Assembly (NCBI GenBank): GCA_022592435.1
Contig: JABYQS010000008.1
Span: forward strand, 248,001-312,000
Length of the DNA stretch: 64,000 nt
Reading direction: 5' to 3'
Source of the DNA: Cerioporus squamosus
Taxonomy: Eukaryota; Basidiomycota; Agaricomycetes; Polyporales; Polyporaceae
Position 1 is the stretch's first letter; the number at the start of each line of letters is the position of its first letter. Under the pieces are notes generated by a model. The model made no database searches and was not told where the DNA came from. It saw only the letters and a program-made list of their open reading frames with translations. Below are positions 3,869 through 50,178 of the stretch, one piece after another. A program made the position numbers and the translations under genes.

Positions 3869-5907
3869 TTAGAGGGTCTGCGTAGGAAATGGTCACTGTC
3901 AGAAGTGCTACACCATCGTCGGTGCATGCCAGTATTCGACGCACCTTCGCGACTTCACCGTCGCGCTTGATGAGCCAGTTCCCCGGTGCACAACGCTGGC
4001 ACCAAGCAGCCTTCTTCTCCAGCTGAGAATCAGCTTGCTTCTGAGGAACGGTGTTGGGGACAACGCGATAACTAATACACTACAACATACCTTGACAGCA
4101 GCGGCGGCAGGCGTCTTCGCTTTCCCGCTTGATGAGCCAATTCCCGGGTGCGCAACGCTGGCACCAGGCTGCCTTCTTCTCGAGGTCCTTCGGCACGTCC
4201 TGTATAGACACCAATGTATTTCAGATCAGGAGTTCACGCGGCCTTCATCGGGTGGACGTACTTCAGGGGCCGGATCGGTGGAGGCTCTGTCCTCACGCTT
4301 GATGAGCCAATTACCGGGGGCGCAACGCTGGCACCAAGCGGCCTTCTTCTCCAGTGTTTGGGAAGCTCCCTATGAACTAATAAACACAAGTCCAGGGAGC
4401 GGGCAACTCGCGAACCTACCTCAATTGCCGCCTCGCTGGCAGCCTCCGCCTCACGTTTGATGAGCCAGTTACCAGGGGCGCAACGCTGGCACCAAGACGC
4501 CTTCTTCTCGAGCGTCCCCGATGCAGCCTGCGTAAGGTGATTAGCAAATAACACGCAGAGAGTGCGATTCGCACCTACCGAGTCCATTGGAGTCTCAACT
4601 GGAACATCGGATGTATCTTCACGCTTGATGAGCCAGTTGCCTGGGGCACAGCGTTGGCACCATGCAGCCTTCTTCTCGAGACCCTGAGGCATCTCCTGGA
4701 AGTCATAAGCCACGTGTACGAGACAGTGAGAAAATGGAAGTATACCTCGACGAGGGGCTCAGTGACATCCTCCGAGTCCTCGCGCTTGATGAGCCAGTTA
4801 CCGGCAGTGCACCGCTGACACCACGCCGCCTTCTTCTCGAGGGTTTCCAACTGCTGGGGGATTCTTCATTGAGCTGGGCCTGGCATAGGTTTTCGTTGTG
4901 CGGTGTACAACGTACCCCCGAATCACTCTCGCGCTTGATGAGCCAGTTTCCGGGGGCACAGCGTTGGCACCATGCAGCCTTTTTCTCGAGAGTGCCGGAT
5001 GACTGGTAAAACCGTATATGTCAGTCATACCAGTATTTCTCTAGGGAGCCGTATGTATGCGCATCCCACCTCTCCGGCAACAACGGCCGCAGCATCTGGA
5101 GGGAGCTAACAGAGGTACCGTATCAGTATCAGTTGCTAGCATTGATGCTCCCCAGCCGAATATGAGTTCTTACCTCTGCAGTAGCCTCTGGCTCAATTTC
5201 GCGCTTGCCAAAGGTCCTCGTCGAGCGGTCATAGGGCTGTCCGTACGGTGCACAATGAGAAGAGGTCACCAACTGAAGCGGACTCGGAGGTGTAAGGTCG
5301 CACCGTGGCATGAACGATATGGAGCGCACCGCCCTCGTTACCGGAGTGGTCGCGGACGTGCGTCAAGTGGCCGCAGCCAGAACAATAGACGTCGTGGTGC
5401 ACGCCATCCGGCGTGCGGCCGGCCTTGAGCGCCTCGATTATGAATTCGGGCGAGTGCACACCCCGCTTGAGTGCCGTGTAGACCCTAGACGAGGAACAGA
5501 GTCACACGTGGCGGTCGTCAGTGATCTTGGTGGGTGCACCACGGTCGGAGGCCGCTCACCAGTCGATGAACTCGGTCTCCTTGCCGCAGTGAGGGCACAC
5601 CTGCGGGGGAGAGGTAACGTAGGTGCCCGCGACGCCGGTGTCGTAGAAGTCGGTCTGGAGGAGGGCGGAGAGCCGCTCCTGCTCGTCTTGGCCGATCATC
5701 CAAGAGTAGACTGGGCGGTCGAGCTCGTCGCGCAGCTCAGTGAGCCTAACGAGGCCGGTGGACCGAGCCGACGACTGGGGCGTAGAGGGAGTCAGCGTAC
5801 GCCGCGGAAATGGGGAGGCTGGTGCCGGTGGCGGGACGTACGGTGACAACGACCGCAAGGACGTTGATCAGGACGATAGCGAACGCGTATAGCGGTTTGA
5901 ACGCCAT
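3869..5907 (-). CDS. Secreted Kex2-processed repeat precursor: seven copies of a WCQRCAPGNW peptide
   Basis: Probable precursor of a secreted short peptide. Exon 1 (5907-5842) encodes a 22-residue hydrophobic signal peptide (MAFKPLYAFAIVLINVLAVV). Exons 2-3 (5774-5560, 5484-5304) encode a compact domain with CPHCGKE and CSGCG motifs. Exon 4 (5236-5174) carries a first FGKRE site, and exon 5 (5105-5070) is a 36-nt linker. Exons 6-12 (5002-4916, 4853-4746, 4695-4579, 4527-4420, 4369-4262, 4199-4091, 4040-3945) each carry one copy of KKAAWCQRCAPGNWLIKR with an acidic spacer. One spacer begins KREAEA, as in yeast alpha-factor. The predicted product between the dibasic sites is 14 residues with two Cys and two Trp. 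Joins between repeat exons are phase 0. Exon 11 is 109 nt where the others are multiples of three, so it is one base too long. The last two codons come from a small exon at 3877-3869, which is uncertain. The prodomain and repeats being one gene is an inference from consistent splicing. Confidence 0.75.
3945..5002 (-). repeat. Seven tandem repeat units (one exon plus one intron each)
   Basis: The coding core starts, on the + strand, near 3963, 4126, 4296, 4454, 4622, 4783 and 4932, so the period is about 149-170 bp. The coding core is nearly invariant (one copy has CTAG instead of CAPG, one has AS instead of AA). The spacers and introns differ in sequence and length. This is exon-level tandem duplication, not a CRISPR array or satellite. 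Confidence 0.9.
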
Positions 5908-6958: not shown

Positions 6959-7003
6959 TACAATCATCTACGGCCGAACCGGGTTCGGCCGTAGATGATT
7001 GTA
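6959..7003. repeat. Perfect 45-bp palindrome (22-bp arms, 1-bp spacer)
   Basis: Bases 6959-6980 are the exact reverse complement of 6982-7003, separated by a single G. The outer ends are TA. Pairing stops sharply outside. The strand could fold into a very stable hairpin; neither a gene nor a transposase lies beside it. Confidence 0.95.
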
Positions 7004-13530: not shown

Positions 13531-15203
13531 ATGCCATTTCTCACCGATGAGGAACGGCTACAGTTCCGTGTCGAACCGACCCCGGAGGTCGTTCAAGCGG
13601 CACGCAACACGATCACCCAGCACGAGCTCGCAATCGATGCCATAGAGGAACGCATCCAAGCCCTTATCAGCCAAGTCCGGGACCTGCGATACGACCAGGC
13701 GAAGCACAGGGCGGCCATCGAGCGCTGTAGCGGCGTCCTCACGCTCGCACGCCGTCTACCCGCAGAGCTGCTCATCAAGATCTTCATGCACTGTGTGGAG
13801 GACGGGTGGACTCCTGCCCCGCTCGTCGTCTCGCACGTCTGCTCGGCGTGGCGCAGGGCGGCGCTGTCCCCGAAGGTGTGGTCGCACGTGTACGTCCGGT
13901 GTGACGACGCAAATGTCCTCGACCGGACGCAGTTCTGGCTCAAGATGGCTGCGGCCGCGGACCTCCATGTCACGTTTGCTGCGTCGTGGCGGATCACGCA
14001 TAGGGAGATCAACCGGCTTATGGCCTTGCTCTCGACAAGGCGGGCGCAGTGGCGGTCGCTCAGGATCGAGACGGATACCACGCAACATGCGGAGTTCATC
14101 CTTGGGCAGTGCCATGGCATGTTCCCGGAGCTGCGCGAGGTTAGCGTCAAGACGGCCGCCTTAACGCCGGATGGCGGCGACGTTGACGGGGCCTCTGACC
14201 TCGTACGGCTGGCGGACACGTTCACTGCAGAGCGGGCTCCGAGGTTGGCCACAGTGTCATACGTGTCGCCCATCATCCCTGCTGTCCCCGTCTTTCCTAC
14301 CCATATCGTCCACCTTGATCTGAGGGTTCAAGAAAGCCTGAACCAGCGTCCGCTCTCTACCGCCTCCATCCTCGGCATTTTAGAGCCCCTCACCGCGCTC
14401 AAGACCCTCACCCTCAGCATGCCTCTTATTTATGTGCAACCGTTCTCCCCCGAGCCAGATTCGACGCGGTTCGTCTCATTGCCGAGCCTCACGAGTCTGA
14501 CTGTGTACGGACCCACCGACCTCAACGAACTCCTCCCTCACATCCATGCCCCGATCCTCCGCCACCTCTACCTCCGCTCTCTCGAGGACCTCGGCTACCG
14601 CCAGCAGCCCGTCGGCCCAAGCTTGATGCGGTTCCTCGAGCACTCATCACCACCCCTTGAGCTCCTCGAAATGCACGATGTCGACCTCTCCCCCGACACA
14701 TTCGCCACATGTTTCGCTGCACTGCCGGACTTGCGCGAGCTGCGCCTGCACGAGTCGTCCATCTCGGACTCGACCGTCCAGCTGCTCAACGGCCCGCGGG
14801 GTCTCTGTCCGCGCCTGAGGAAGCTCGACCTGCGGTGGTGCGGGATGTTGCGTGGGCGCGCGCTGGTCGACTTGGTGCGGAGCCGGCACGTTGTGGACGA
14901 TCTGGCGGGGTCGGTGTCGGACCCCATCGAGGAGGTTGGCGTGATCAATTGTGCGTTTGTGCTGGAGGACGACGTGCTGGACCTCGCGCGGATGACTGTC
15001 TGCAGGATTGTTACACGAGATGGGGATGACTATTGTCGTGAGTGCTGTGTTTCGACTGAGGTACCAGTACAGCGGGTAGCTGACCAGGTCGTTTTGCAGG
15101 TTCGACTGGATGTTGCAGCAACGCACGTTATAGGACTCGATTGCGTTTGCGACACATGGACGAGTTTGTCGGTCAGGACAGGAATTTGCGGCTGGTTCTA
15201 TAG
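13531..15203 (+). CDS. F-box protein with leucine-rich repeats
   Basis: Likely substrate receptor of an SCF ubiquitin ligase. After a short start (MPFLTDEERLQFRVEP) there is a coiled-coil of about 45 residues, then the F-box: LPAELLIKIFMHCVEDG, followed by HVCSAWRRAALSPKVWSHVY. The rest is irregular leucine-rich repeats (LRIETDTTQHAEFILGQC, LKTLTLSMPLIYV, LRHLYLRSLEDLG, LRELRLHESSI, LRKLDLRWCGML). This is the usual Agaricomycete F-box plan. One intron near the end (15038-15099, 62 nt) changes the tail to a sequence ending DRNLRLVL with stop at 15201-15203. An in-frame ATG at 13486 would add 15 residues; the inner ATG begins the typical family start. The degraded target is unknown. Confidence 0.85.
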
Positions 15204-48299: not shown

Positions 48300-50178
48300 A
48301 TGTGTATGAGTCCAAAAGGAACATACAGTTGTCAACGTCTATATCATCTCTTCGATACCGACAAGACCAGAGACATCCACTACAAGGAAACAACTGGTCG
48401 GTGGAATCAGTGCACACACCCACGCTGTCCACTACGGTACAATACAGACCAGATCCCACCACACATTACGATTTCGAAGAGCGCAGTACGAGCAGAACGA
48501 ACACAGGAGAGAAAGATCACTCAAGTATATCAAACAGGACCAGCAATTGAAAGTAGCCCAGCACCAGCAGGAACCCAAGCAACTGCAAGTCCGAGGATAT
48601 CATCAGGATCATTTCTCAGTCCTCAAGTACAGTTAACGTCAGTGCCAAGTCCACTCGCAACAACATCGAGCCTAAGGGCAGAATCAGAATCCGAGACACC
48701 CTCACCATCTGGTCAGGTAGAACCAGAACGAGCCGAGACACCGAGAACCGATTCAGAAAAATCAGAGACAGAATCAATCCAGCCAGAGAGACAGAAGACA
48801 CCGGAGTCCGAAGTCTTGCCGTACGCAAGTTTACCGCATTCAGAACACAACACACCACCAGAGACACCCGTACGGAAAGCAATACCATCCTTCATGTCGA
48901 ACACAGCAACAATCACACCCGGAACATCCATTTCCACTGCCCACGGATATGCCTTTCAGCCAGGCAACACGCAAGTGGCAGCGGTGGATACATGGGTGGA
49001 AGCGGGTCGATGGGACAGCCAGTCACCGGAACAGTGCCCGTCGCGACAGCGACCTCAGGAGGCGCCGTCGGACAGACAAGTGGTGGAGGGAGCAGCTCAG
49101 CTACAGGAGGAACAGGAGGTGGTGGCGGAGGTGGAGGGTCCAATCCCAATCCAAACCCAGGAGGGAGTGGAGGAGGCGGTGGTGGAGGTGGAGGCGGAGG
49201 CCCCAATCCAAACCCGGACCAAATCCTCCAAATCCAAATCCAGGACCAGGCAATCCGCAAGGACAGCCTATTCCGCCCGTCATTCCGCACGGAAAGGGAA
49301 AGATCAAAGACCCTGAGGTCTTTAACGGAGATCGGAGTAAAACTCGATCTTTCCTCAACCAACTCTTTCTACTATTCACAGCACGAGCACACGATTTCCC
49401 TGACGATACCACCAAAGTGGCCACCGCTTTATCCTTCATGGAAGGAGAAAACATCAACTACTGGAAAGACACGGCAATCAGGAGGGCGGAAGAGGAAGTA
49501 CAGCCAGGCATTCCCCGAGGTTTCGATACCTGGGCTGTCTTCAAACAAAACTTCCAAGCCTCATTTGCACCAGTAGATGAAGTCGACGACTCTATGGTCA
49601 ACATAACCACCATTCAACTCAAAGACTACGCATCAGTCGACGAGTTCAATGCGAGGTTTATGGACCTAGCCCTCAAAGGAAATATTCTGGACCCGACAGC
49701 GCAGCTTGCGTTATATCGACAAGCACTACCAGAATATTTGTTGAGGAAGATAGCAGTCTCCTACCCTGTGCCAACAACTATCGCAGAGTGGATGACCAGG
49801 ACAAAGGAGTTGGATCACAGCTATCAACTCACTGAAAAGATTTTGGCGAACCAGAAGACACACCGGGCCAAAAATCCTAGAACCACGAAAACAGTAAGAG
49901 CAGTGAATGTCGAACAGAACCCATCTCTCAACATTAACAAGCTCTCTGTCGAGGAACGACAGGAGTTACTAAACAAAGGTTTATGTTTCCGATGTCGACA
50001 ATCGGGCCATATAGCCAAGAACTGTCCCTCTAAGACAACGGAACCAGGAAAACCTGTATCACGGAAAGTGAGACAGGTCACACAAGAAGACAGTGGAGAA
50101 GAGGGAGACGATGAAGAAAGTGAGGAAGACCTCCAGATCAATGCACTTAGAGCCAAGGACTTTGATTCAGATTTTTAG
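48300..50178 (+). pseudogene. Retrotransposon gag protein with CCHC zinc knuckle
   Basis: Structural protein of the element. The first part (48300 to about 48960) is Ser/Thr/Pro/Glu-rich; then a Gly-rich tract; then the Ty3/Gypsy gag core: KIKDPEVFNGDRSKTRSFLN, YWKDTAIRRAEEEVQ, VFKQNFQASFAPVDEVDD, VDEFNARFMDLALKGNI, LYRQALPEYLLRKIAV. The nucleocapsid zinc knuckle CFRCRQSGHIAKNC is intact, and the acidic end stops at 50178. The three parts sit in three different frames, so two frame changes (near 48960 and near 49215, the latter at a short G/C run) interrupt it as read. Confidence 0.8.

Follow-up and report, generated by a model that had tools for sequence, protein, structure and literature searches.

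The closest described systems are the KEX2-processed repeat proteins (KEPs) of Agaricomycetes, in which a signal peptide is followed by short core repeats bounded by dibasic sites. Le Marquer et al. 2019 (PMC6339444) described KEPs in Basidiomycota, some of them with a clear alpha-factor layout or full STE13 signatures, as did Umemura 2020 (PMC7329392), while Vogt et al. 2022 (PMC9769878) report KEP peptides detected in mushrooms and six kep knock-outs without a phenotype. Two further systems share parts of this organisation: the ascomycete alpha-factor precursors, which resemble this gene in being multicopy, in their kexin sites, in the single EAEA spacer found here and in having Trp and Cys in the peptide, and the dikaritin precursors of the ustiloxin type, which combine a signal peptide with Kex2-bounded repeats and whose original definition, as quoted in PMC12048977, places a tyrosinase in the cluster.

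The gene examined here, located in a 64-kb stretch of Cerioporus squamosus DNA (the window), is a real, conserved KEP-type gene belonging to a family with a conserved Cys4 domain. Its N-terminus is hydrophobic, and all seven of its near-identical repeats lie between KK and KR; several Agaricomycete KEPs also have, as here, a Trp near the core end (PMC9769878). Unlike the KEPs compared, the gene has a Cys4 domain of ~140 residues between the signal peptide and the repeats, which is related to proteins lacking an obvious signal peptide. The original prediction held that such a peptide was not yet described in this group; because KEPs had already been reported in Basidiomycota (PMC6339444, PMC9769878), this is wrong for the class. 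Apparently new is a family that joins a conserved domain to changing Trp cores and stands apart in the tree from the family without signal peptides; the probable emergence of its secreted multicopy peptide from the tail of a protein also looks new. No paper turned up in a literature search for six strings taken from the cores and the domain, a result that concerns these strings and is not a claim of absence from print.

The splice-site gene model consists of 13 exons on the minus strand, from an ATG at 5907 to a stop at 3869, both as originally predicted, and its product comprises a signal peptide, the Cys4 domain and seven cores of 14 residues. The signal peptide occupies an exon of its own, and so does every core (one core per exon). 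The introns are 50–75 bases long and in phase 0 apart from two, namely the one that interrupts the domain, after which exon 3 begins in phase 2, and the one before exon 12 (phase 1 in the chosen model). The alignment of the model with the annotated Lentinus tigrinus protein P0001 has no gap between the ATG and GKR. The N-terminus is strongly hydrophobic in both, by which the signal peptide was judged, and cleavage would fall after ...SSA in exon 2. The features, in window coordinates, are as follows.

5842..5907, minus strand: exon 1, signal peptide MAFKPLYAFAIVLINVLAVVVT (similar N-terminus in L. tigrinus P0001; hydrophobicity)
5560..5774, minus strand: exon 2, first half of the conserved Cys4 domain, CPHCGKETEFIDW (gene model and P0001 alignment)
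5304..5484, minus strand: exon 3, second half of the domain, HDVYCSGCGHLT ... HAT (gene model and P0001 alignment)
5174..5236, minus strand: exon 4, domain end PYDRSTRTFG and first dibasic site KR (gene model, relatives and P0001 alignment)
5070..5105, minus strand: exon 5, short linker LPPDAAAVVAGE (splice sites only)
4916..5002, minus strand: exon 6, core 1, KK-AAWCQRCAPGNWLI-KR (gene model)
4746..4853, minus strand: exon 7, core 2, KK-AAWCQRCTAGNWLI-KR (gene model)
4579..4695, minus strand: exon 8, core 3, KK-AAWCQRCAPGNWLI-KR (gene model)
4420..4527, minus strand: exon 9, core 4, KK-ASWCQRCAPGNWLI-KR, then EAEA (gene model)
4262..4369, minus strand: exon 10, core 5, KK-AAWCQRCAPGNWLI-KR (gene model)
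4091..4199, minus strand: exon 11, core 6, KK-AAWCQRCAPGNWLI-KR (gene model)
3945..4033, minus strand: exon 12, core 7, KK-AAWCQRCAPGNWLI-KR, AAG acceptor (gene model)
3869..3877, minus strand: exon 13, final codons TL and stop (splice sites only)

At the exon 11/12 junction, splicing to the usual CAG acceptor (exon start 4040) would shift the frame by one base, and exon 12 is in frame only via an AAG acceptor 7 bases downstream (exon start 4033). Since the junction needs either an unusual acceptor or an indel error, core 7 may not be translated. An assembly indel is plausible here because the differences between the locus and a short overlapping contig (C774; 99.3% over 1663 columns and 97.9% over 3320 columns) are rich in gaps, which account for 9 of the 12 differing columns in the gene-bearing block, one of them within core 1, and for 37 of the 70 in the other block. 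C774, which is either a haplotig or an indel-rich assembly, stops just past exon 6, short of exon 11. Upstream of the gene, at window positions 6959–7003, two 22-base arms separated by a single base form a perfect inverted repeat.

Each of the seven cores has LEKK before it and KR after it, in agreement with the predicted placement between KK and KR, and the KREAEA predicted after one copy follows the fourth. The core is exactly the consensus AAWCQRCAPGNWLI in five of the seven copies; copy 2 (AAWCQRCTAGNWLI) has TA for AP and copy 4 (ASWCQRCAPGNWLI) has AS for AA. A whole-genome search with the repeat listed seven matches at E ≤ 0.001, every one at the window locus, and C774 holds an extra copy of core 1 that was absent from these matches. 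Across the 21 pairs of repeat units there are 156 synonymous versus 31 other nucleotide differences, and the mean dN among the copies is 0.019. The dS values range from 0.42 to 2.41 in 16 defined pairs and are undefined in the other five of 21, so that synonymous sites are near saturation; the median of 1.03 counts the five undefined pairs as −1. The six inter-copy introns have a similarity of 0.51, compared with 0.47 (SD 0.04) for shuffled ones. The synonymous excess, the low dN and introns about as alike as shuffled sequences together argue that the repeat is not due to chance, and we read the copies as probably old, with the peptide held by selection.

A protein search returned 11 relatives at E ≤ 1, all of which carry the precomputed Pfam label PF26731. 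The protein from L. tigrinus (P0001; 71% identity over 99% of the length) has the same layout: its signal peptide resembles that of the C. squamosus model, and it too has seven cores, although after one of them ER takes the place of KR. The WCxxC core is found in five of the 11 relatives, and the remainder have different cores or none. WCQRC cores number three in Polyporus arcularius (a model without its N-terminus), two in Trametes gibbosa, where the preceding KK is missing, and one in Daedaleopsis nitida, and Earliella (P0005) has one WCAAC core plus ten other cores. Other cores at the same position, also with kexin sites, include WPRNWLE, WPGNWIA, WRPLWT, WQPYWT and STYGWDTISCLT. Paralogs in the same genome vary similarly: one on C512 has four core exons (WGTLGSRVS, two GWPAGGNFRWVL and GWFTVKWLR), one on C223 has a signal peptide and a single core, WFWIPSNPWLRKR, with WIPSNPW followed by KR, and one on C53 (about 14300–14850) has the signal peptide and the domain, ends soon after PYNRATKTFG and contains no core. 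Cores are also lacking in eight signal-peptide-type database proteins (P0012, P0013, P0014, P0015, P0016, P0017, P0018 and P0021), although some of these models may be truncated. The existence of these coreless members raises the possibility that the Cys4 domain has a role without cores. Separately, C323 and C104 bear stop-containing copies of the domain gene that are 99.5% alike (3 mismatches and 22 gap openings in 6836 columns), which look like one pseudogene assembled twice.

A secreted, Kex2-type multicopy layout in a basidiomycete, as originally predicted, is borne out by the gene layout and by the presence in the genome of one kexin P-domain match and a DPP-IV/STE13 homolog. The prediction had further called the precursor alpha-factor-like. 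If the gene encoded an alpha-factor-type mating or hyphal pheromone, Kex2, Kex1 and STE13 would release the peptide and a seven-helix receptor would read it. The Kex2 layout with its single KREAEA, the DPP-IV homolog and the Earliella relative P0005, with (X-A/P)2 after 9 of 12 sites, fit this reading, and such KEPs have been reported in Basidiomycota (PMC6339444). In C. squamosus, however, the STE13 signature (X-A/P)2 follows only one of the 16 dibasic sites, and the globular Cys4 domain sets the protein apart from the alpha-factor precursors. The core itself differs, departing from the ascomycete WC..GQ.CW pattern just as the prediction had noted. The pheromone receptors known from basidiomycetes are encoded by STE3 genes, which in this genome map to contigs other than that of the window (C44, C672 and C470); a search of the genome for STE2 gave no match, and neither did its control. 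The WCxxC core occurs in only the five relatives mentioned above, and the wider family shows no link to pheromones. The alpha-factor label is thus a loose fit; the pheromone reading is weak and we regard it as unlikely.

The other proposal, a cyclic RiPP, would in its dikaritin form have UstYa (DUF3328) proteins cyclise side chains of the core after Kex2 cutting. A signal peptide followed by Kex2-bounded repeats is indeed the dikaritin precursor layout (PMC9769878), and the genome contains UstYa genes (16 exon matches). The gene is also adjoined by a convergent plus-strand gene with MFS-like exons, a possible transporter (three exon matches, with ORF matches between 2557 and 3563, below the curated cut-off). 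Against these points, none of the 16 UstYa and none of the eight tyrosinase exon matches falls on C777, the contig of the window, so the dikaritin-type proposal is unsupported, and the Cys/Trp core lacks Tyr. Twenty of the 63 window ORFs of at least 170 residues were scanned, and enzyme-like matches among them were limited to an alpha/beta hydrolase, a DUF1295 protein and MutS exons, all farther along the window, where an F-box protein and SWIRM and Myb/ZZ exons were also matched. This reading is weaker than that of a pheromone, and we consider it very improbable. An ORF with retrotransposon gag and zinc-knuckle matches lies at window positions 48721–50175.

A domain profile search extended the family to 71 proteins at E ≤ 1, and a third search gave 41 at E ≤ 0.001. 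Members without an obvious signal peptide come from Serendipita, Gloeophyllum, Gloeopeniophorella, Peniophora, Tricholoma, Sphagnurus, Collybiopsis, Imleria, Panus, Steccherinum, Meripilus and Cristinia, and this signal-peptide-less family is found across the Agaricomycetes; the assignment is by hydrophobicity and reading of the N-terminus, with P0036 (1.77) and P0081 (1.73) borderline. Taxonomically, Lentinus, Earliella and Cubamyces belong to the Polyporaceae, Panus, Steccherinum and Meripilus to other families of the Polyporales, and Serendipita to the Sebacinales. In a tree of 44 rows, a branch (98/88) has all 18 rows classed as lacking a signal peptide on the same side, and another (98/97) separates off 25 of the other 26. 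Between the two groups falls the last row, which comes from a metagenome, has a long branch and begins with a signal-peptide-like stretch. The tree was rooted at its midpoint and would accommodate loss of the signal peptide instead of gain. WCxxC cores appear in three places of the signal-peptide clade and do not form a clade there. An insertion after IDW, read as an intron, was seen in proteins of both types (7 of the 12 unspliced database relatives examined).

Of 20 proteins without a signal peptide, 11 end in the tail WGxWW[LM]D, and three, all from Polyporales outside the Polyporaceae, contain one to three copies of WIPSxPW. The remaining six lack both motifs: P0035 and P0038 show Trp pairs of other kinds, and the other four, whose models may be truncated, show no such pairs. 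The Trp spacing of the tails does not surpass that of shuffled tails with equal composition, so the homology of tails and cores rests on position, WIPSNPW and the tree. The two groups differ in their dibasic sites: among the proteins chosen for this comparison (15 signal-peptide members with Trp cores and 16 signal-peptide-less proteins with tail Trp, the coreless eight database proteins and C53 being left out), 63 of 75 Trp clusters versus 4 of 28 have a dibasic site within the seven residues after their final Trp, counts that are not independent, and by protein the proportions are 14 of 15 versus 4 of 16 (p = 1.7e-4).

This comparison bears on a further alternative, namely that the gene encodes a structural or surface repeat protein, with either a multivalent Trp-rich tail or wall-bound peptides like those of Ustilago Rep1. 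Panus P0027 and Steccherinum P0080, both without an obvious signal peptide, repeat Trp motifs with few dibasic sites (WIPSNPW in both and, in P0080, also RWAGIWANY), indicating that a Trp motif can serve in an uncut chain. Nevertheless, dibasic sites follow the Trp cores far more often in the signal-peptide family than in its signal-peptide-less counterpart, and a structural role is in our view quite improbable for the present gene.

Altogether, we consider it probable that the gene encodes a Kex2-processed repeat protein whose peptides are released outside the cell and which was born from a tail-motif protein of polypores. The signal peptide would route the precursor into the secretory pathway, where kexin would cut after GKR at the domain end, after KR and after KK, the last being a weak site for this protease, and a carboxypeptidase would remove the basic residues. 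Up to seven copies of the 14-residue AAWCQRCAPGNWLI would thereby be secreted, together with the spacers and the separate Cys4 domain, and the CxxC pair could form a disulfide outside the cell. It is most likely that the peptide acts extracellularly, between hyphae or on other organisms, rather than as a mating pheromone. As to origin, it is most likely that, among polypores, a conserved protein without a signal peptide and with a short Trp end motif came to carry a signal peptide as well as dibasic sites, and that the tail motif was multiplied, one copy per exon. Gain of the signal peptide, and not its loss, is suggested by the wide spread of the signal-peptide-less type under the midpoint root, and WIPSNPW with a kexin site in the C223 paralog links that family to the cores. 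The tail motif may thus have turned into a core once the protein became secreted.

It is conceivable, though doubtful, that the Cys4 domain serves as a carrier for its own Trp-motif peptide, in a manner comparable to neurophysin, the binding protein of vasopressin. The ancestral C-terminal Trp motif would have docked on the domain, and after acquisition of the signal peptide and kexin sites the pair would have become a secreted peptide and its binding protein. The one hint of this comes from an AlphaFold2 model of L. tigrinus P0001, in which the blocks of core 1 (residues 191–210) have mean pLDDT values of 74 and 82, which may be an artefact, as the underlying alignment favours copy 1; those of the other copies have 30–46, and the tail-motif block of P0039 has 53. 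Searches of the PDB gave no match for the precursor domain.

The role of this domain, which is predicted to fold, could be assayed, and the gene gives exact peptide masses to seek in polypores. The birth of new secreted peptide families is seldom visible. Here, the steps leading from protein tail to secreted multicopy peptide could each be tested in turn, since there are signal-peptide-less relatives that share the domain and an intron-like position, and an intermediate motif, WIPSNPW, occurs both with a kexin site and without one.
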